Assembly: GCA_003280495.1 (NCBI GenBank)
Contig: QCET01000006.1
Span: 1-45,834 of the forward strand
Length of the DNA: 45,834 nt
Origin: Pelagibacteraceae bacterium AG-359-E06
Lineage (GTDB): Bacteria > Pseudomonadota > Alphaproteobacteria > Pelagibacterales > Pelagibacteraceae
Reading direction: 5' to 3'
A model generated the notes under the pieces. The model was not told where the DNA came from and ran no database searches. It saw only the letters and a program-made list of their open reading frames with translations. Below are positions 27,944 through 37,599 of this stretch, piece after piece. Both the position numbers and the translations under genes were made by a program. How positions within the stretch are numbered: the stretch's first letter is position 1; each line of letters starts with the position of its first letter.

Positions 27944-28508
27944 TATAATTAAAATTTTAAGAGAGACGGATGCTCTGATGAAAGGACATTTTATTTTATC
28001 TTCTGGGCTTCATAGCGCTGAGTATTTGCAATGCTCTAAGTTAACAATGTATCCAAAAAAGCTTGAAATTTTATGCAAGTCTTTAACCGAGAAAATAGAA
28101 AACAAGTATAAAAATATCGATATGATCGCTTCACCCGCATTAGGCGGCATTATTGTTGGTTATGAAGTATCTAGATGCCTAAACATACCTAATGTTTTTG
28201 TTGAAAGGGTAAATCAAATTTTCGAACTAAGAAGAAATTTTTCTGTAAAAAATAAAAAAATTTTAATTGTTGAAGATGTAATAACAACAGGCAAATCAAG
28301 CTTAGAATGTGCAGCATGTTTAATTGATGAAGGTGCAGATGTATTAGGTTATTCGTCAATTGTAGATCGATCTGACGGAAAGTCTTTAATAAAAAATGAA
28401 ATTATCTCCTTAATAAAGTTTGATATACCCTGTTATGACCCAGAAAATTTACCAGAAGAATTAAAAAAAATAGAACCAATAAAACCCGGCAGTAGAGCTG
28501 CAATATAA
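27927..28508 (+). CDS. pyrE: Orotate phosphoribosyltransferase
   Basis: Joins orotate to PRPP to form OMP in pyrimidine synthesis. The 193 residues show GHFILSSGLHSAEYLQCSK (orotate-binding region), SPALGGIIVGYEVSR, the VERV segment and the PRPP-binding loop ILIVEDVITTGKSSLE (family VEDVVTTGxS). Length and motif order match the short alphaproteobacterial PyrE type. It starts 17 bp inside rel and is followed after 7 bp by pdxJ; rel-pyrE-pdxJ order is conserved in many alphaproteobacteria. Confidence 0.95.
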   Translation: MISETDIIKILRETDALMKGHFILSSGLHSAEYLQCSKLTMYPKKLEILCKSLTEKIENKYKNIDMIASPALGGIIVGYEVSRCLNIPNVFVERVNQIFELRRNFSVKNKKILIVEDVITTGKSSLECAACLIDEGADVLGYSSIVDRSDGKSLIKNEIISLIKFDIPCYDPENLPEELKKIEPIKPGSRAAI

Positions 28509-28515
28509 TTTATAG

Positions 28516-29235
28516 ATGATAAAACTCGGGGTAAACATAGATCATATAGCAACCATTAGAAATGCTAGGGGCGAAGATCATCCGGACATTATTAAAGCCG
28601 CAAAGTTTGTTTCGAATTGTGGTGCAGACATTATAACAATACATAGAAGAGAGGATGAAAGGCATATAAATAGAAAAGATGTAATTAAACTAAAGAAAAA
28701 AATTTCTAAACCAATAAATTTAGAAATGGCAGCAAACCAAGATATGCTTAGGCTTGCGCTTAAAATAAAGCCTAAATATGTATGCATAGTCCCTGAGAAA
28801 AGAATGGAAGTAACTACTGAGGGTGGTTTAAATCTAAAAAAAAATAACTTAAGACAAATAATAAAAAAATTGAAATCATCAAAAATTGAAGTTTCATTAT
28901 TTGTTGATCCCAGTATATCAAATATCAAATTAGCCAAAAAATTAGGGGCAGATTCTGTAGAGATACATACGGGCAAATTTGCAAAACTATTTAAATTAAA
29001 GAAAAAGTCACAGCTTAACAAAGAATTTATAAAAATTGCTAGATGTAGCAACCTAGGAAAAAAAATTAATTTAAATATAAAGATGGGTCACGGTCTAGAT
29101 TATGACTCAACAAAATATCTTTGTAAAATAAAGGAAGTGTGCGAATTTAATATTGGCCATTTTATTATTGGAGAGTCTATATTTTTTGGTCTTAAACATG
29201 TCATAAAGAAATTTAAAAAAATTATAAAAAGATAA
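28516..29235 (+). CDS. pdxJ: Pyridoxine 5'-phosphate synthase
   Basis: Closes the pyridoxine ring from deoxyxylulose phosphate and 3-amino-1-hydroxyacetone phosphate. The 239-residue TIM barrel begins IKLGVNIDHIATIRNARG, the family's signature with the substrate histidine. It continues with ITIHRREDERHI, NLEMAANQDML, CIVPEKRMEVTTEGGL, VEIHTGKFA, and near the end MGHGLDYDS plus IGHFIIGESIFFGL. All typical PdxJ contacts are visible. The stop is immediately followed by the start of a membrane protein gene with no spacer, so the glycan cassette may be read from the same message. acpS, the common next gene, is not there. Confidence 0.97.
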   Translation: MIKLGVNIDHIATIRNARGEDHPDIIKAAKFVSNCGADIITIHRREDERHINRKDVIKLKKKISKPINLEMAANQDMLRLALKIKPKYVCIVPEKRMEVTTEGGLNLKKNNLRQIIKKLKSSKIEVSLFVDPSISNIKLAKKLGADSVEIHTGKFAKLFKLKKKSQLNKEFIKIARCSNLGKKINLNIKMGHGLDYDSTKYLCKIKEVCEFNIGHFIIGESIFFGLKHVIKKFKKIIKR

Positions 29236-30723
29236 ATGGTCATAAAACTTAACCAAGAAAAAAAAGAATTCATAATATTAATTATATTATCATCAATTTT
29301 TGCTTTGACAGTTCAGCAAAATTATTTATTTCAGGGAAATCATGCTCATTTAATTCATTCTTTGAAAAACATTAATTTCATAGATTTAAATAATGATTGG
29401 ATTTCATCAATAACTAATCATGTGCCTATATTCACTTTTTTTAATTACATTTTTATTAAATTTTTTTCTATAAATATAATATATATAATACATTTTCTAC
29501 TTTTGATAATAACTGCAATTTCAATATTTTACATTTGCAAAAAAATTTTAAAGAACATCAATTTTTCTGCTTATTGCTTTTGGTTTGCTTTTTTTATTAT
29601 ATTATTTCATGAAAAAACTTTTTTTAATGGTGTAGCTGGGCAAGGTGTTTTGAACCATGTATATCAACCATCAAGTTTTGGAGTTTTATTTTTTTTAAGT
29701 TTTGCATTATTTATTCATGGTAAGTATTATTTGTCAATTTTATCATTAGTAGCAAGTGTATACTTTCATCCAACGTACTTATTACACTCTGGTTTTTTCT
29801 TTATTGGTTATATTTTGTTTCTAATAAGTAAAAAAGAAACAAAAACTTTTAATATTATAATTACATATTTAGCTTTAATCTTACCAGTAGTATTTTTTCT
29901 ATTTAATAACTTTATAATCTTTGATCAAACAATTAACGCACAGGCACAAAAAATACTCGTAGAAAACAGAATTCCTCATCATGCAAATATTTTTTCTTGG
30001 TTAAGTATAAAAGATCTTAGACCACTTATCTTAATATCTATTTCGCTTTACTTAGTAAAAAATTTTAAAGAGATTTTTATTCCTTTGCTTTCAGTATTTT
30101 TATTATCGATATCACTAAGTATAATTCAATACATCATTAATAATTATTGGTTAGCTTTGCTGTTCCCTTGGCGTTCTTTTGTTTTTCTCGTGCCAATTTC
30201 AAGTCTTATAATTATAAGTTTTGTTAAAAATTTAGATAGCGGAAGATTTTCTAAATTAATTTTTATTTACCCCTTGTTTATTATTGCTGTATTTTTAAAT
30301 TTTTTCATAGATTCTAAAATTAATTTAAATAAAGATAATTTAGCCTTTAAAAAAAATTCTGAAATTTATAATTATCTAAAATCAAATAAAAATGACATAA
30401 AGAAGTTGCTTGTGCCGCTTGACCTCCCAGATATTAGATTAAATACTGGTATTCCAATATTTGTCGATTGGAAGCATCATGCTTTTAAAAATGATGAAAT
30501 CATACATTGGTATAAACGTGTGAAATTAAATGAGAGCTTTTACAACTCTAATAATGACAAAGATATGCTTGCAATTTTAAGAGAAATAAAAAAAATAGAT
30601 GAAATATCACACGTAATTTTTAAAAAATCGAATAAAACGAACAATTTTAGAATGTGTGAGAAATTTGGTGTATTTAATGATTATATTATTTATAACTTGA
30701 AATTGTGCAAGCCTAAATTGTAA
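29236..30723 (+). CDS. Polytopic membrane protein, possible GT-C-type glycosyltransferase
   Basis: I do not firmly recognise this protein. Its 495 residues contain about ten to twelve hydrophobic segments up to roughly residue 360, then a soluble C-terminal part of about 130 residues. Distinct motifs are a first periplasmic loop with NDWISS, GQGVLNHVYQPSSFGVL, SVYFHPTYLLHSG, ENRIPHHANIFSW and, in the tail, NTGIPIFVDWKHHAF with IHWYKR. This layout resembles membrane glycosyltransferases of the GT-C fold and DUF6798-like proteins, but that is inference. It begins directly after the pdxJ stop, and its own stop is directly followed by the next start. The neighbours are a methyltransferase and two glycosyltransferases, supporting a role in surface glycans. 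Confidence 0.7.
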   Translation: MVIKLNQEKKEFIILIILSSIFALTVQQNYLFQGNHAHLIHSLKNINFIDLNNDWISSITNHVPIFTFFNYIFIKFFSINIIYIIHFLLLIITAISIFYICKKILKNINFSAYCFWFAFFIILFHEKTFFNGVAGQGVLNHVYQPSSFGVLFFLSFALFIHGKYYLSILSLVASVYFHPTYLLHSGFFFIGYILFLISKKETKTFNIIITYLALILPVVFFLFNNFIIFDQTINAQAQKILVENRIPHHANIFSWLSIKDLRPLILISISLYLVKNFKEIFIPLLSVFLLSISLSIIQYIINNYWLALLFPWRSFVFLVPISSLIIISFVKNLDSGRFSKLIFIYPLFIIAVFLNFFIDSKINLNKDNLAFKKNSEIYNYLKSNKNDIKKLLVPLDLPDIRLNTGIPIFVDWKHHAFKNDEIIHWYKRVKLNESFYNSNNDKDMLAILREIKKIDEISHVIFKKSNKTNNFRMCEKFGVFNDYIIYNLKLCKPKL

Positions 30724-31551
30724 ATGTTATATAAAATTAAATTACTTATTCTAAGAATACTTGGCTATGAAAAGCCATTAAGAGTTGCCTTATTTAAATA
30801 TTTGTCATTAAAATTTAAAAAGTTTAGGCCTCATTACGAAACAGTTTTATATGAATCGTGTAAAGTTGCTAAAAAATTGGGCCATGATGATTTGTGTGTC
30901 TTAGAATTGGGCGTTGCTGATGGCAATGGTATTCTATCGTTAATTAAATATAAAAGAATTATTGAAAATGAATTAAACGTCAAAATCAAGGTTTATGGTT
31001 TTGATCTGGGATCCGGTTTACCTGAAATTAAAAAAAAAGAAGACCTGCCTTTTTTTTGGAAACAAGGAGATTATAAAAGCGAAGGTTTTGAAAAACTTAA
31101 CAATATAAAAGATGTTAAGATTTATCAAGGAGATATAAAGAACACTATTTTAGATTTTGCCAATTCGAATACATCTAAGATAGCGTGCATTTTTTTTGAT
31201 CTTGATTTGTATTCATCGACAGAATCGTTCTTATCAAATATTAATAATTTAGAAAAACACCTTTTGCCAAGAACTTTGTGTTATTTTGATGATTTATACG
31301 TTGCTGACAATTGTGTTGATAATACAAACGGGGAATTATTAGCTATTGCTGAATTCAACAAACAAAATAGTAATTTTCAACTAGGAAAACCCGTTGATCA
31401 TTTAAATGATTTTAAATTTCCACTTGCTAAAGGTCAGCTGTATACGCTTCATAATTTTAAAAATGAACAATACAATCAATATATAGGGATATATTCACCT
31501 GACTCACTTACTGGAAGTAACAATAAAATTCGTTCTTTATTAGACGACTAA
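30724..31551 (+). CDS. Class I SAM-dependent methyltransferase
   Basis: A 275-residue methyltransferase. The SAM-binding motif is VLELGVADGNGILSLIKY at about 60-77, followed by KVYGFDLGSGLPE (acidic end of strand 2). IACIFFDLDLYSSTES carries a DLDLY motif, and LCYFDDLYV resembles the metal-binding acidic pair of TylF-like sugar O-methyltransferases. The C-terminal half is unusual and may bind a glycan acceptor. Start and stop are tightly packed: no spacer from the previous gene and 7 bp to the next. The cassette context suggests methylation of a sugar or lipid-linked glycan; the actual substrate is unknown. Confidence 0.78.
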   Translation: MLYKIKLLILRILGYEKPLRVALFKYLSLKFKKFRPHYETVLYESCKVAKKLGHDDLCVLELGVADGNGILSLIKYKRIIENELNVKIKVYGFDLGSGLPEIKKKEDLPFFWKQGDYKSEGFEKLNNIKDVKIYQGDIKNTILDFANSNTSKIACIFFDLDLYSSTESFLSNINNLEKHLLPRTLCYFDDLYVADNCVDNTNGELLAIAEFNKQNSNFQLGKPVDHLNDFKFPLAKGQLYTLHNFKNEQYNQYIGIYSPDSLTGSNNKIRSLLDD

Positions 31552-31558
31552 TTAGTTT

Positions 31559-32251
31559 ATGAAACTTAATTATACTGTTTCAATTATAATTCCTATTATA
31601 AACGAAATTATATCACTTAAGAAAACATTATTAATAATAAATAAAATTCCAATTAAAAAAGAATTTATAATCATATATTCAGAAAAATTAACAAATAAAA
31701 AAACTTTAGATGAAATTAAAAAAATAAAAAAAAAATATAAAGATTTAAAATTATTTAAACAAAAAAAACCATATGTTGGAGGGGCAATTATGACAGGCAT
31801 TAAAAAATGCACTAAACAATATATAGTTATAATGGCTTCAGATTTAGAAACAAATCCATATGAATTAAAAAAAATGATTAAAACTTCACAGAAATTTCCA
31901 GATTCTATTATTTCTGCCGACAGATGGGTATCTGGAGGTAAATTTAAAAATTATGGACTATTAAAGTTTTTGGCAAATTTTACTTTTCAGAAATTACTAA
32001 AGTTATTTTATAAAAATGAAATTTTAGATTTTACTTTTGCATACAGAGTATATCCACATAAGGCACTTAAAAAAAACAAGTTTTATGAGTTGCGTCATGG
32101 TTTTGCTCTTGAAATGTTACTAGCTCCTATAAAACGTGGATATAAGGTCATAACCGTAGCATCTACATGGAAATCTAGATCAGAAGGCAGTTCTTCTATT
32201 ACTTTACTAAGTTACATTTCTTATTTAAGAGTGTTATTTAAATATTTATGA
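31559..32251 (+). CDS. Family 2 glycosyltransferase (divergent, DPM1-like)
   Basis: A 230-residue GT-A fold protein. The N terminus VSIIIPIINEIISLKKTL is the usual GT2 opening (normally PxYNE, here PIINE). YVGGAIMTGIKKC corresponds to the KGxAxxxG segment, and VIMASDLETNPYELKKMI to the DxD region, here SDLE, so the metal-binding acidic pair is altered. SADRWVSGGKF and FAYRVYPHKAL match the later conserved region of dolichol-phosphate-mannose-synthase-like enzymes. The donor and acceptor are unknown. It overlaps the next gene by 4 bp. Basic residues and isoleucine dominate, in line with the AT bias. Confidence 0.8.
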   Translation: MKLNYTVSIIIPIINEIISLKKTLLIINKIPIKKEFIIIYSEKLTNKKTLDEIKKIKKKYKDLKLFKQKKPYVGGAIMTGIKKCTKQYIVIMASDLETNPYELKKMIKTSQKFPDSIISADRWVSGGKFKNYGLLKFLANFTFQKLLKLFYKNEILDFTFAYRVYPHKALKKNKFYELRHGFALEMLLAPIKRGYKVITVASTWKSRSEGSSSITLLSYISYLRVLFKYL

Positions 32252-33168
32252 TTTATATTGCTACAACTACTATTAATCCTCCCACAAAAGCTTTAAAAAA
32301 ATTTGCATCAAATAAAAATTGTAAATTAATTGTTGCCCTAGATAAAAAATCTAAAAAATTTAAACTTAAAAATTCAATTGTGTTATCAACGTCATATCAG
32401 CATAAAAAATGGAATAAATTATCAAATATGATTGGATGGAATTGTATTCAACGAAGAAATTTTGCTATTTTAGAGGCTTATGAAAGAGGTGCAGAAGTAA
32501 TTGCATTAATTGACGATGATAATATTCCATACAATAATTGGTTTAAAAATATTTATGTAAATAAGAAGATATATTGTTCAAAAGTAAATACTAATAAATT
32601 AGTTTTTGATCCAGTCGGATATACAAATCATACTAATCTTTGGCATAGAGGTGTTCCGTTGGAGCAGGTAAATAATAGAAAATACAAAAAAGCTGGTAAA
32701 AAAATAATTAAAGCTGATATACAGGCAAATTTTTGGGATGGAGATCCTGACATAGATGCAGTGTGTAGAATGATTTATAAACCAGAGTGTAAGTTTAAGA
32801 AAAAATACTTCCCTTTTTTTTCAGACAAAATATCACCGTTTAATTCACAAAACACTTTGATATCTAGAAAAATGATAAAAGATTATTTTTTATTTCCTCA
32901 TATTGGAAGGATGGATGATATTTGGGCTTCATTTTACGTTACTTCAAAAAAATATAAGGTTGTTTATAATGAGTCTACCGTTTACCAGGCAAGAAATGTT
33001 CATAATTTAATAAAAGATTTTAAAGATGAAACAATAGGTTATGAAAATTCTTTAAAGTTAATTGAAGCTTTATATAAAAATTCTGAAAAAATTTATGACT
33101 TTTTACCCCTATTAAGTTCTAAAGCATTTGATGAGTGGAAAAAAATTATATCAAAAATTAAAAAATAA
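32248..33168 (+). CDS. STELLO/DUF288-like putative glycosyltransferase
   Basis: A 306-residue protein resembling the STELLO (DUF288) glycosyltransferase group, otherwise known mostly from eukaryotes and scattered bacteria. It opens YIATTTINPPTKALKKFA, then NCIQRRNFAILEAYERGAE followed by VIALIDDDNIPYNNWF, an acidic DDD likely to bind a metal-nucleotide. NLWHRGVPLEQV matches the RGxPLE-type signature. ANFWDGDPDIDAVCRM and PHIGRMDDIWASFYV follow, reminiscent of DIWRGY in STELLO. The start overlaps the GT2 stop by 4 bp. Function is inferred by similarity I recall, not by search. It ends the cassette; a homocysteine methyltransferase follows 11 bp later. Confidence 0.72.
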   Translation: MIYIATTTINPPTKALKKFASNKNCKLIVALDKKSKKFKLKNSIVLSTSYQHKKWNKLSNMIGWNCIQRRNFAILEAYERGAEVIALIDDDNIPYNNWFKNIYVNKKIYCSKVNTNKLVFDPVGYTNHTNLWHRGVPLEQVNNRKYKKAGKKIIKADIQANFWDGDPDIDAVCRMIYKPECKFKKKYFPFFSDKISPFNSQNTLISRKMIKDYFLFPHIGRMDDIWASFYVTSKKYKVVYNESTVYQARNVHNLIKDFKDETIGYENSLKLIEALYKNSEKIYDFLPLLSSKAFDEWKKIISKIKK

Positions 33169-33179
33169 TTAATAATTCA

Positions 33180-34076
33180 ATGCACAAAGATTTTTTTCAT
33201 AAATTAAGAATTTTTGACGGTGGAACTGGACAAGAACTTATAAATAGAGGATTGATACCACAAAAAAATCTCTGGTCTGCTACAGCATTACTAAACGAAA
33301 AATATCATAAGTTTATACTAGATACACACCTAGATTTCATAAATGCAGGAGCTGAAATTATTTTAACTAATACATTTGGTTCAAGAAAAAGAAGACTAAT
33401 AGAAAACAATTTATTAAATAGATATCAAGATTTAAATACTATAGCAGGTAAAATAGCTAAACAAGCGGTGCAATCCTCAAAAAAAAATATTCTTATTGCG
33501 GGAAGTATTCCCCCACAAAATTTTACTTATCAGTCTGATTTAGGAAATGATTTAAATTTTATACGGGAAGCCTTTTATCAACAAGCTAGCTATTTAGATC
33601 CTTACGTTGATTTTTTTTATTTAGAGGTAATGTGTAGTAAAAAAGAGTGTGAATTAGCTATTGAAGCCTTGCAACCACTAAAAAAAAATATAGTTGTTGG
33701 ATTGCATTTAAAAAGCAAAGGATTGTTACCGTCTGGAGAAAAGTTTATTGATGTTGCAAACTATCTATCAAAGTTTGATCTATCAGGTATTACTGCATCT
33801 TGCGTAAATCCGGATGAGTATGATTTTATTAGAAATGATATTTCAAAATTATCCGTACCGTATGGATTTAAATTTAATGCATTTGAACAAATTCCTGAAG
33901 GTTGGAAGCCTGATGGAAAAAATACCTCGTTACTAGGAAAACGTAACGACATTACCCCTGATGAATTTTTAAAAATTTGTGAGAAATATGCTAAGTTAGG
34001 AGCCACATTAATAGGTGGTTGTTGTCAAATAACTCCTAGTCACATTTCTAAATTAAAAAAAATTAAAAAATCCTAG
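33180..34076 (+). CDS. Homocysteine S-methyltransferase family protein
   Basis: Zinc-dependent methyltransferase of the MmuM/BHMT family, transferring a methyl group to homocysteine to make methionine. The 298 residues include LRIFDGGTGQELINRG at the N terminus, ILTNTFGSRKRRL, and the zinc-ligand cysteines in TASCVNPDEYDF and GGCCQITPSHI. All three expected cysteines are present. The donor (S-methylmethionine, betaine or another methylated compound) cannot be told from sequence. No SAM riboswitch fits in the 11 bp before it, so the gene is probably read from the upstream cassette transcript. The stop is 54 bp before tRNA-Leu. Confidence 0.9.
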   Translation: MHKDFFHKLRIFDGGTGQELINRGLIPQKNLWSATALLNEKYHKFILDTHLDFINAGAEIILTNTFGSRKRRLIENNLLNRYQDLNTIAGKIAKQAVQSSKKNILIAGSIPPQNFTYQSDLGNDLNFIREAFYQQASYLDPYVDFFYLEVMCSKKECELAIEALQPLKKNIVVGLHLKSKGLLPSGEKFIDVANYLSKFDLSGITASCVNPDEYDFIRNDISKLSVPYGFKFNAFEQIPEGWKPDGKNTSLLGKRNDITPDEFLKICEKYAKLGATLIGGCCQITPSHISKLKKIKKS

Positions 34077-34130
34077 GATGAACTTGTTAAGTCTATAATT
34101 TTAGCATAAATAGTGGTGAAACTTATACGT

Positions 34131-34216
34131 GCCCTCGTGGTGGAATTGGTAGACACAAAGGACTTAAAATCCTTGCCCTTCGGGGAGTGCCGGTTCGAGT
34201 CCGGCCGAGGGCACCA
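34131..34216 (+). tRNA. tRNA-Leu (anticodon UAA)
   Basis: An 86-nt tRNA with acceptor stem GCCCTCG/CGAGGGC, discriminator A and encoded CCA. The anticodon stem AAGGA/TCCTT encloses CTTAAAA, giving UAA, which reads UUA and UUG. The long variable arm (TGCCCTTCGGGGAGT) and the T arm GCCGGTTCGAGTCCGGC confirm a leucine type. UUA is expected to be a very common leucine codon in this AT-rich genome. Confidence 0.97.
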
Positions 34217-34219
34217 TAA

Positions 34220-36151
34220 TTAGACATCTAAATTTAAATTTTTATTTGCATTATCAGAAATAAACTTTAATCTATTTTCTGGATTTTTACCCATGAGGTT
34301 ATCAATAAATTTTGAAACTTTAGAAACTTTAGATTTCAAATTTGGCAAGGTAACTTTTATAAGTTTTCTTGTTTCTTTATTCATCGTAGTTTCTTTTAAT
34401 TGAGCAGGCATCATTTCACCCAGCCCCTTGAATCTACTTATTTCATAATTTTTACCATTTTTTTTAATTAATTTGTCTTTCGCTTTGTCGTCATTGACAT
34501 ATATAACTTCTTTTCCAGACGATATTTTGTATAACGGTGGGACTGCTAAAAATAATCTTCCATCTTTTATAAGTTGTGGAATTTCTGAAAAGAAAAATGT
34601 TAGTAATAATGTTGAGATATGATCTCCATCAACATCGGCATCAGTCATAATAATAATTTTTTCATATCTCAAATCTTTTGAATTATATTTTTTTCCTCTT
34701 TGACACCCCAAGGCTTGTAAAAGATTGCTGATTTCAGTATTTGCAAGTATTTTTGCAGCATTTGCATTTTTAACATTTATTATTTTCCCTCTTAATGGAA
34801 GGATTGCTTGTGTTAATCTTTCTCTAGCTTGCTTTGCGGAACCACCTGCCGAGTCTCCTTCAACAATAAATAACTCGGTGCCCTCAATTTTGTCACTAGT
34901 GCAATCTGCTAATTTCCCAGGCAATCTAATTTTTCTTGTTGCTGATTGTCTATCAATATTTAAATTTATATTTTGTAAATTTTTTTCTCTTATGATTTCC
35001 TCAAGATAATTGATAATATTTTTTGAATGTTTTTGATTTCTATTTAGCCATTCTTCAAAAATGTTTTGAGTTATCTTTTCGGCTATTTTTTGAACAAATG
35101 AAGATGATAACTTATGTTTCGTTTGTCCTTCAAATTCAGGATTTTCTATAAAAGCAGATAAAATAAAAGAGCAATTTTGAAAAACATCATCCGAAGTTGC
35201 TTTTGCTACGAGCTTATTTTTTCTTAAAGAAGAGAATTTTCTAATCGCTTTAGTAATTCCTGTTTTAAATCCTACTTCATGAGTACCCCCGTTTATATTA
35301 TATACGGTATTACAAAAAGATTTTTTAATTGGATTAATTTTTTGGTGCCACTGTAAAGCAAATTCAAATTTGCTTTTTGTGTCATTATCATACCCTTTGC
35401 CAAAACCTATTTTGTCATTGATTGCAGTTTTTTGACTAAGCTCTGTTTCTAAATAATCTTGTATTCCATTTTTAAAACATAACGTTTCTTTTTTAGGAAT
35501 ATCAGAATTTCTTTTTATTAACTCTCTTTTGCATTCCCAATTAATTTTTACATCTTTTATCAAATATGCCTTATTTTTACATACCTCATAAATTTTGGTG
35601 ATATCAAAACAGATATCATTTTTAAAAATTTCTTTATCAGGTGTAAAGGTAATAGAGGTTCCTGAGTTTTGTTTTTTCTTTATACCTTTTTTCAAAATAG
35701 TTAAAGCCTTACCTTTTGAGTACTTTTGAACGAAAGATTGTTTTTTTTTAATAATTTCTACAATTAATTTTGAACTTAATGCATTAACAACTGATAGTCC
35801 TACGCCGTGTAGTCCAGCAGATGTGTTATAGACACCAGATTTAAACTTTCCACCTGCATGTAGGCTAGTCATGACAATTTCTAAGGCTGTCTTTTTCTTC
35901 TTTGGATGTTTTTCTATTGGTATACCTCTACCGTCATCTGAAATTTGTATAGTTTGTTTATTTAAAACTTTAACATCTATGGTTTTTGCGTGACCTGCAA
36001 CGACTTCATCCATACTATTATCGATAATCTCTGAAAATAAATGATGATATGCGTTTTCATCCGTACCACCGATATACATCGCTGGTCTTTTACGGACTCC
36101 GCTTAGACCTTCTAATATTTCTATATCTTTTGCTGTGTAACTGGAGACCAT
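34220..36151 (-). CDS. parE: DNA topoisomerase IV subunit B (ParE)
   Basis: ATPase subunit of topoisomerase IV, which decatenates chromosomes. The 643 residues have the GHKL fold with SYTAKDIEILEGLSGVRKRP and MYIGGTDENAYHHLFSEIIDN (catalytic Glu and Asn), ISDDGRGIPIEKHPK, and GLHGVGLSVVNALS. The TOPRIM part has ELFIVEGDSAGGSAKQARER and IIMTDADVDGDHI. The short C terminus GKNPENRLKFI is typical. I call ParE rather than GyrB because of the YTAKDIEILEGL start, which matches alphaproteobacterial ParE, and the compact length; GyrB is the alternative. It is 41 bp downstream of glnA on the same strand. Confidence 0.88.
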   Translation of the reverse strand: MVSSYTAKDIEILEGLSGVRKRPAMYIGGTDENAYHHLFSEIIDNSMDEVVAGHAKTIDVKVLNKQTIQISDDGRGIPIEKHPKKKKTALEIVMTSLHAGGKFKSGVYNTSAGLHGVGLSVVNALSSKLIVEIIKKKQSFVQKYSKGKALTILKKGIKKKQNSGTSITFTPDKEIFKNDICFDITKIYEVCKNKAYLIKDVKINWECKRELIKRNSDIPKKETLCFKNGIQDYLETELSQKTAINDKIGFGKGYDNDTKSKFEFALQWHQKINPIKKSFCNTVYNINGGTHEVGFKTGITKAIRKFSSLRKNKLVAKATSDDVFQNCSFILSAFIENPEFEGQTKHKLSSSFVQKIAEKITQNIFEEWLNRNQKHSKNIINYLEEIIREKNLQNINLNIDRQSATRKIRLPGKLADCTSDKIEGTELFIVEGDSAGGSAKQARERLTQAILPLRGKIINVKNANAAKILANTEISNLLQALGCQRGKKYNSKDLRYEKIIIMTDADVDGDHISTLLLTFFFSEIPQLIKDGRLFLAVPPLYKISSGKEVIYVNDDKAKDKLIKKNGKNYEISRFKGLGEMMPAQLKETTMNKETRKLIKVTLPNLKSKVSKVSKFIDNLMGKNPENRLKFISDNANKNLNLDV

Positions 36152-36192
36152 TAAGTAATACTAATGGAATTTGAGCTATATTTAAACTAATA

Positions 36193-37599
36193 TTAACAGC
36201 TATAATACATTTGAAACTCTATAGGATGTGGAGTGTGTTCAAAGTTTTGAACCTCTTCCATTTTTAATCCAATATAAGCATCAATTTGGTCGTCAGTAAA
36301 TACTCCACCTTGAGTTAAAAAAGATCTGTCTTTGTCGAGGGACTCTAAAGCTTCCCTTAATGAACCACAGACTGTTGGTATTCCGCTCAATTCATTCTCT
36401 GGTAAGGCGTACAAATCTTTATCTAGTGCATCACCAGGATTAATTTTGTTTTTTATTCCATCTAATCCCGCCATTAACATAGCCGAGAATGTAAGGTATG
36501 GATTTCCCGCTGCATCTGGAAACCTTACCTCAACTCTTTTGCCTTTTTCACTGGTGCTAAAAGGTATTCTACAACTTGCTGATCTATTTCTTGATGAGTA
36601 AACTAATAATACAGGAGCTTCAAAGCCAGGTATTAATCTTTTATAGCTATTTGTTGTAGCGTTGGAGAAAGCATTAATCGCTCTTGCATGTTTAATAATG
36701 CCACCAATATAATGTAAACATTGATCAGATAAACCAGCATATTTTTTTCCTGCAAATAATGGTTTTCCATCTTTCCATATTGATTGATGAGTATGCATAC
36801 CTGAACCATTATCGCCTTTCACTGGCTTAGGCATAAAGGTTGCAGATTTACCAAAAGATTGTGCAACATTTTGAACTGCATACTTATAAATTTGCATCCC
36901 ATCGCCTTGGTAAGTTAGAGTATTGAATAAAGTTCCAAGCTCATGTTGACTTGGAGCAACTTCGTGATGGTGCTTTTCGACCTTTACACCCATATCCTTC
37001 ATGGCTTTTAAACATTCCGATCTTAAATCTTGAGAACTGTCAACAGGGGGAACTGGAAAATATCCTCCTTTTACACCGGGTCTATGTCCTAAGTTTCCAT
37101 TTTCATATTTTTTTCCAGTGTTATATGGACCTTCAATACTATCAATTTCAAAACCTGTTTTATTCATGTCATTGTTGTATTTTACATCATCAAAAACAAA
37201 AAACTCTGGTTCAGGTCCAAAATAAGCAGTATCACCAACACCAGACTTTTTTAAATATTCTTCAGCTTTTTTTGCTGTTGAACGAGGATCTCTTTCATAG
37301 AATGTTTTTGTAATAGGATCCATAATATCACAAAACAAACAAAGGGTATTATGCGAAAAAAAAGGATCTACGTATGATGTAGTTAAATCAGGTTTTAAAA
37401 TCATATCAGATTCATTAATTGCTTTCCATCCAGCAATAGAAGAGCCATCGAAAAACACTCCGTTATTTAACATATCTTCATCGACAGTAGATAAATCCTG
37501 TGTTAAATGCTGAAGCTTACCTCTTGGGTCGGTAAATCTTAAATCAACGTATTCTATTTCTTTATCTTTAATAATCTTTAAAATTTCTGATGCGCTCAT
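36193..37599 (-). CDS. glnA: Glutamine synthetase type I
   Basis: Assimilates ammonium by making glutamine from glutamate and ATP. The 468 residues match the GlnA type Ib (beta) size. Visible motifs are [26 protein letters not shown] (metal-binding His/Glu), [14 protein letters not shown] and NRSASCRIP. The adenylylation loop [11 protein letters not shown] places its tyrosine at residue 397, the position modified by GlnE in E. coli. No glnB gene precedes it, although glnB-glnA is the usual alphaproteobacterial order. A strong AAGGAG ribosome-binding site lies 8 nt upstream of the ATG at 37599. It sits in a nitrogen-focused neighbourhood with aapJQMP about 1 kb away. Confidence 0.97.

Follow-up and report, generated by a model that had tools for sequence, protein, structure and literature searches.

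What does a tightly packed set of four glycan-type genes directly behind pdxJ make, and how did it come to lie there? The window in which this question arises is the whole 45,834-nt contig C6 (QCET01000006.1) of Pelagibacteraceae bacterium AG-359-E06 (GCA_003280495.1, here genome G000), a SAR11-type draft genome of 842 kb in 34 contigs that is about 80% complete. The original prediction, made from this DNA alone, read the four genes as a polytopic protein, a TylF-like methyltransferase, a divergent family 2 glycosyltransferase (GT2) and a STELLO-like transferase, inserted as one unit after pdxJ. Open reading frame (ORF) calls agree with the packing that it described, all four genes lying on the + strand with spacers of 0, 0, 7 and -4 nt counted from pdxJ (Table 1). 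The best explanation overall, which we consider moderately probable, is that this cassette is a module of a flexible island and builds a methylated surface glycan containing a furanose, perhaps via a polyprenyl-phosphate donor.

This explanation begins with the fourth gene. A profile of 48 family sequences found MtdL, a structurally solved nucleoside diphosphate (NDP)-pyranose mutase of glycosyltransferase family 75 (GT75), at E 8e-33, and all four PDB sequences that it matched up to E 10 were versions of MtdL; the window protein as a single query reached the same enzyme at E 3e-11. The AlphaFold (AF2) model of this protein has a pLDDT of 95.7, and a fold search with it returned MtdL first (TM score 0.86, E 7e-20, about 18% of the structurally aligned residues identical), followed by rice UAM2 (OsUAM2, 8cid, E 4e-10), one of the plant RGP/UAM UDP-arabinopyranose mutases (GT75), with every transferase ranking lower. 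Two Pfam identities were tried and rejected: STELLO (PF03385) scored 23.5 bits against a cut-off of 27.8 and covered only residues 222-276 (55 residues), and RGP/UAM (PF03214) was matched by a single one of the 48 members at E 0.27, so that the link to GT75 runs through MtdL. As judged from profile and model, the gene very probably encodes a mutase-type enzyme, and with MtdL on top in both searches a GT75/MtdL-like mutase takes the place of the 'STELLO-like transferase' first proposed. The label 'STELLO glycosyltransferase' on its relatives may be a widespread misannotation, in which case a family publicly called a glycosyltransferase would be a furanose-supplying mutase. Among plasmid matches, H27-H31 (Azospirillum, Sphingomonas) are distant mutase relatives annotated 'STELLO glycosyltransferase family protein'.

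Catalytic residues were compared through the profile-MtdL alignment across 80 genomic and 80 viral homologues, with residue roles taken from the MtdL study (PMC9937993). The equivalents of MtdL D109-D111, N112, R159, D195, Q229, R257, D260 and R289 are identical in 160/160 homologues, and S228 is kept in 158 of them (80/80 genomic, 78/80 viral). The DDD motif is D89-D91 in the window mutase and is present in 80/80 genomic and 80/80 viral sequences, while the reactive Arg (MtdL R159) and the general-base Asp (MtdL D260) correspond to R134 and D224. The bacterial GT75 mutases MtdL and Hyg20 share with the window mutase the fold, the DDD-N motif, the reactive Arg, the base Asp and the phosphate-binding Arg, but stand in an antibiotic cluster rather than a surface-glycan-type gene set and differ at two positions, where the window protein has Gln for His and Ile for Asp87 (PMC9937993).

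Around this enzyme a four-step furanose-glycan pathway can be proposed, of which only the mutase is strongly supported and which, taken as a whole, we regard as evenly poised between right and wrong. The mutase would contract an NDP-pyranose to an NDP-furanose via a covalent arginine-sugar intermediate, as the fold and the invariant catalytic residues suggest. The GT2 would load the sugar onto polyprenyl phosphate; we propose it as a polyprenyl-phosphate sugar synthase by analogy with dolichyl-phosphate mannose (DPM) synthase (5mlz, E 6e-9) and the GtrB-like phrog_841 (E 3e-16), and it also matches dolichyl-phosphate hexose transferase and AglJ, all below cut-off. In the weakest step the polytopic DUF6798 protein, a proposed GT-C-like extracytoplasmic transferase, would hand the sugar to a surface glycan outside the cytoplasm. 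The methyltransferase, a proposed sugar O-methyltransferase, would methylate the sugar; TylF (PF05711) scored 12.6 bits against a gathering score of 23, and Methyltransf_24 fell below cut-off too. Nucleotide sugar would be supplied by an epimerase of the short-chain dehydrogenase/reductase (SDR) family, whose gene adjoins that of the mutase in many relatives, though not in the window.

A pentofuranose pathway of like logic with a different donor enzyme has been described among Gtr-type three-component glycosylation and GT136 pentofuranose systems (PMC11127046). These systems likewise combine a GtrB/DPM-like GT2 with a polytopic protein, but their donor comes from phosphoribosyl pyrophosphate, whereas here an NDP-furanose would come from the GT75-like mutase, no flippase is matched in the cassette, and both the furanose and the GT-C fold are putative (PMC11127046).

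The most interesting outcome of the analysis is that mutase, GT2 and SDR epimerase recur as a trio. We took the best 80 of 117 cellular and the best 80 of 244 viral mutase relatives, choosing loci by the mutase alone, and counted as adjacent a GT2-subfamily gene at most 400 nt upstream on the same strand and an SDR-subfamily gene at most 400 nt downstream of the mutase gene. The GT2 was adjacent in 55 of the 80 genomic loci, the window GT2 belonging to this very subfamily, and the SDR in 45; both were present in 38 and neither in 18. The counting models were derived from those same 80 loci. With single SAR11 sequences as queries, partners and background were nonetheless separated by the same gap: GT2 partners came at position -1 down to E 1e-32, two copies at -3 excepted, with other GT2s from E 9e-17, and SDR partners at +1 down to E 4e-95, with background from 6e-37. 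Record titles place the 80 loci in Alphaproteobacteria, Prochlorococcus, Bacteroidetes, Verrucomicrobia, Lentisphaerae, Planctomycetota, Acidobacteria, Actinomycetota and others. A literature search, largely over listings with abstract openings, found no description of the trio. Fused GT2-mutase proteins were considered and dropped, the long mutase ORFs in L164, L188, L195 and L197 looking like upstream read-through in G+C-rich loci.

As single queries against viral sequences, the mutase and methyltransferase proteins brought up no relatives, after which alignment A2 gave the 244 viral mutase relatives; the window GT2 and membrane protein had no match in phages. The GT2 was adjacent in 0/80 viral loci and an SDR match in 10/80, only that in L217 standing clearly above background. 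In a tree of 160 homologues and the window mutase, the window protein and L136-L144 form one clade with support 1.0, and the tree needs at least four switches between cellular and viral carriers. The Synechococcus phages S-T4 and Sf-CH8 have mutase relatives at 46% identity, both in runs of genes that carry the labels heptose kinase, phosphoheptose isomerase and glycosyltransferase, a glycan setting that counts in favour of the proposed pathway; the sugar of these phage enzymes could be a heptofuranose. These genes (L133:8043-8900 and L134:7992-8900) lie in heptose/lipopolysaccharide-type cassettes under the labels hypothetical or membrane protein, and a mutase-like gene at 31% identity occurs in the unannotated record of a huge uncultured phage of 735 kb (L135, LR756501.1). 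We tentatively suggest, as a possibility that falls somewhat short of even, that the trio is a widespread flavin-free route to polyprenyl-phosphate-linked furanose donors for extracytoplasmic glycosylation in many phyla, its mutase also taken up by phages and its family hidden as 'STELLO glycosyltransferase'. If so, the conserved trio would directly flag uncultured bacteria whose surface glycans contain furanoses, a highly abundant marine group among them.

Several observations weigh against this chemistry. The metal-coordinating His287 of MtdL is Q247 in the window mutase, and Gln stands there in 80/80 genomic and 76/80 viral homologues (156/160, with Ser in 4/160); the position of MtdL Asp87 is hydrophobic across the family (Ile 151, Val 6, Met 3). 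In the MtdL study, His287 binds Mn, changing D87 to Asn or Ser abolishes MtdL activity, plant GT75 members likewise deviate at D87 (Ser), and certain plant GT75 proteins have neither mutase nor transferase activity (PMC9937993). With both residues replaced, activity or sugar could differ from those of MtdL; because the metal His is among them, we call the enzyme GT75-like rather than a confirmed GT75 member. The family appears to be a GT75-like sister branch that has a metal ligand and a sugar pocket of its own, with incomplete GT75 membership. Nearly all of the 47 GT2-subfamily members that were aligned read SDLET-P, with the first Asp lost, where their polyprenyl-phosphate-type relatives carry DxD. 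The substrate of the methyltransferase is guessed from weak matches (TylF/CalS11), the AF2 model of the membrane protein (pLDDT 52.7) is too poor for fold assignment, no flippase family turned up among the four cassette genes, and no SDR lies beside the window mutase, the best SDR match in its own incomplete genome being weak (E 1.3e-9).

The replaced metal His and Asp87, together with the inactive plant GT75 proteins (PMC9937993), leave room for a fourth gene that is a true glycosyltransferase, either STELLO-type or GT75-like without mutase activity, and for a methylated glycan built from pyranoses; STELLO matches in 9 of the 48 family members, the best at E 3e-5 and short of the Pfam cut-off, lean the same way. 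We judge this improbable, since MtdL is best by sequence and fold with a wide margin and the Arg, the acids and the phosphate-binding residues of the mutase reaction are invariant. A separate doubt concerns the use of the furanose: the GT2 might be a cytoplasmic furanosyltransferase adding NDP-furanose to an O-chain, with a membrane protein that is a polymerase, a ligase or unrelated, and no polyprenyl-phosphate donor at all. Such direct use would suit the altered DxD place, the membrane protein that occurs without GT2 and mutase in genomes G160, G292 and G141, and the scarcity of this protein at trio loci, most of which lack it (it was found in 5 loci only). It is unlikely but a serious contender, for the best relatives of the GT2 are the polyprenyl-phosphate sugar synthases named above.

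Where the furanose-glycan cassette belongs emerged from its relatives. The order membrane protein, methyltransferase, GT2, mutase recurs in five other Pelagibacteraceae genomes (L136-L139 and L144, of 13 annotated Pelagibacteraceae loci among the 80), with methyltransferases 60-63% and DUF6798 membrane proteins 39-42% identical to those of the window, and this identical order bears out the reading of one functional glycan unit. All five cassettes are preceded by cinA and a GGACT gene and followed by an SDR gene. Three of them (G120, G122, G124) have tRNA-Leu(taa) farther down the same contig, oriented as in the window; the tRNA gene is on a separate contig in G121 and was not found in G123. 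A search of the five single-amplified genomes with the window parE gave only 43-45% matches in G120, G122, G123 and G124, which lie beside tRNA-Ser(gga) and are probably gyrB, so that in those genomes the site is marked by tRNA-Leu and not by parE. As an aside, some Pelagibacteraceae may lack topoisomerase IV.

The interval between cinA and tRNA-Leu is highly variable, measuring 24.7 kb in G120, 18.1 in G122, 15.3 in G124, 5.5 in G003 and 2.8 in G126, and no more than 56 bp in G010 and G022, both of them complete genomes. Its content in G003 consists of other glycan-type genes (GT17, GT8, formyltransferase). In G160, G292 and G141 the cinA-GGACT border is kept and the membrane protein shares about 46% identity with that of the window, but the stretch read contains no window-type methyltransferase, GT2 or mutase; G160, the one whose genes were identified, has an oxidoreductase, a different GT2 and a C-methyltransferase instead. 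A search of 120 relatives, two congeners among them, gave only one weak partial match for the mutase gene and only four matches for the methyltransferase gene. Of 397 Pelagibacterales genomes, 15 have the mutase family and 8 the membrane protein, with G000 counted each time, which marks flexible rather than core content, although these numbers are too few for a co-occurrence statistic. With few carriers and differing gene sets at the same site, the variable locus suspected in the original prediction is supported, and a border tRNA with content that varies between relatives was found, as in a tRNA-associated island.

Copies of the 5' half of tRNA-Leu(taa), 39-43 nt long and 91-97% identical, precede the intact gene within the island, two in G124 and one each in G003 and G126; they resemble the scars of integration events repeated at the tRNA 5' half. 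The earlier statement that no repeat flanks the cassette holds for the window, where no partial tRNA-Leu copy lies beside it, but these three related genomes do have such copies inside the island. A repeat scan of positions 28000-37000, direct and inverted, returned only short, diverged, mostly A+T-rich matches, and a family scan of the cassette proteins found no integrase. The SAR11 O-chain/HVR2 island is similarly flexible and carries surface-glycan genes but splits the rRNA genes, whereas the present island lies between cinA and tRNA-Leu(taa) (PMC7318151). It would be another hotspot of surface-glycan genes in Pelagibacteraceae, in addition to the rRNA-linked island, with turnover made traceable by the tRNA-Leu scars. 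A phage-receptor role of the locus is plausible, and for phage-host work it offers a concrete candidate for variable cell-surface chemistry.

How, then, did pdxJ become a neighbour? A survey of 45 pdxJ loci, merged to 32 distinct relatives, found acpS next in 27, lepB in 1, argS in 3 and a contig end in 1, so the expectation of acpS or lepB after pdxJ holds in 28 of 32. The three argS cases belong to one genus (L022 in G060, L025 in G071, L029 in G032) and indicate that the pdxJ-acpS junction was broken more than once. In G010 and G022 cinA is followed by tRNA-Leu and pdxJ by acpS; in G010 the former pair, with parE converging on tRNA-Leu, lies 83 kb from the latter. The window instead reads pdxJ, cassette, tRNA-Leu and convergent parE, and in the congener G002 cinA is followed by two glycine-betaine-type transporter genes and then acpS-lepB-rnc. 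With high confidence we regard the cassette as a swappable module of the cinA/tRNA-Leu island, which a lineage-specific rearrangement would have broken on the cinA side, joining the part with cassette and tRNA-Leu to pdxJ; the claimed insertion after pdxJ is superseded. Both junctions would be expected if the tRNA-Leu-to-pdxJ segment had been excised, closed into a circle and reinserted elsewhere, and other series of events could produce them too. In G000 itself the lepB contig ends 133 bp upstream of lepB, and the partner junction is not readable.

Against this history stands the nature of its evidence, namely draft assemblies: the contig of the window and a single contig from each of the congeners G001 and G002. 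The cassette might instead have been newly inserted at pdxJ after the rearrangement, its proximity to tRNA-Leu being coincidence or a second integration. No cassette genes were found in either congener, G001 has a different gene beside parE, and tRNA sites are re-used; yet in the three other traceable genomes this gene order precedes that same tRNA-Leu with unchanged orientation, and the cinA-acpS junction of G002 shows that both the pdxJ/acpS and the cinA/tRNA-Leu borders were broken within the genus, making new insertion rather unlikely. We think it very improbable that the pdxJ-cassette junction is an assembly artefact: although G000 is a 34-contig draft and the junction is in neither congener assembly, the gene ends abut with no gap or broken frame, composition is continuous, and G002 independently has acpS away from pdxJ.

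Table 1 Features of the window around the cassette, with partial tRNA-Leu copies located in relatives
Feature	Position	Strand	Evidence or remark
pdxJ, left neighbour	28516-29235	+	PF03740 E 6e-87; stop codon abuts cassette, proposed rearrangement junction 29235/29236
Polytopic protein, C-terminal DUF6798	29236-30723	+	PF20604 E 2.5e-9, above cut-off
SAM-dependent methyltransferase	30724-31551	+	phrog_6608 methyltransferase E 2e-12; CalS11 E 0.007
GT2, DPM synthase/GtrB-related	31559-32251	+	PF00535 E 1e-18, above cut-off
Predicted GT75/MtdL-like NDP-pyranose mutase (earlier 'STELLO-like' gene)	32248-33168	+	Profile, fold, residues
Homocysteine S-methyltransferase	33180-34076	+	PF02574 E 5e-48; 11 nt 3' of mutase gene
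tRNA-Leu(taa), right island border	34131-34216	+	962 nt past last cassette stop codon
Type II topoisomerase B subunit (labelled parE)	34220-36151	-	Kept beside tRNA-Leu in G010, G022
tRNA-Leu 5'-half copies	G124:C5 ~37988 and ~41144 (L317/L318); L319:9546-9584; G003:C2 ~195375 (L324)

Five tightly packed + strand genes fill the interval from pdxJ to tRNA-Leu(taa); the fifth, for homocysteine S-methyltransferase, probably shares the cassette transcript, and it sits elsewhere in relatives. On the parE side, the immediate neighbour of parE in the congener G001 is an ORF of 213 aa that runs off the contig (L068:7631-8270, G001:C55). Its relative in the glycan cassette of viral contig L216 is a GT2-like gene at a distance of 1.3 kb from a mutase gene, one case that suggests gene turnover at this spot within the genus. 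In the single-contig genome G039, pdxJ matches in two pieces with several stop codons (G039:C1:1036402-1037114), either a pseudogene or the result of sequencing errors.

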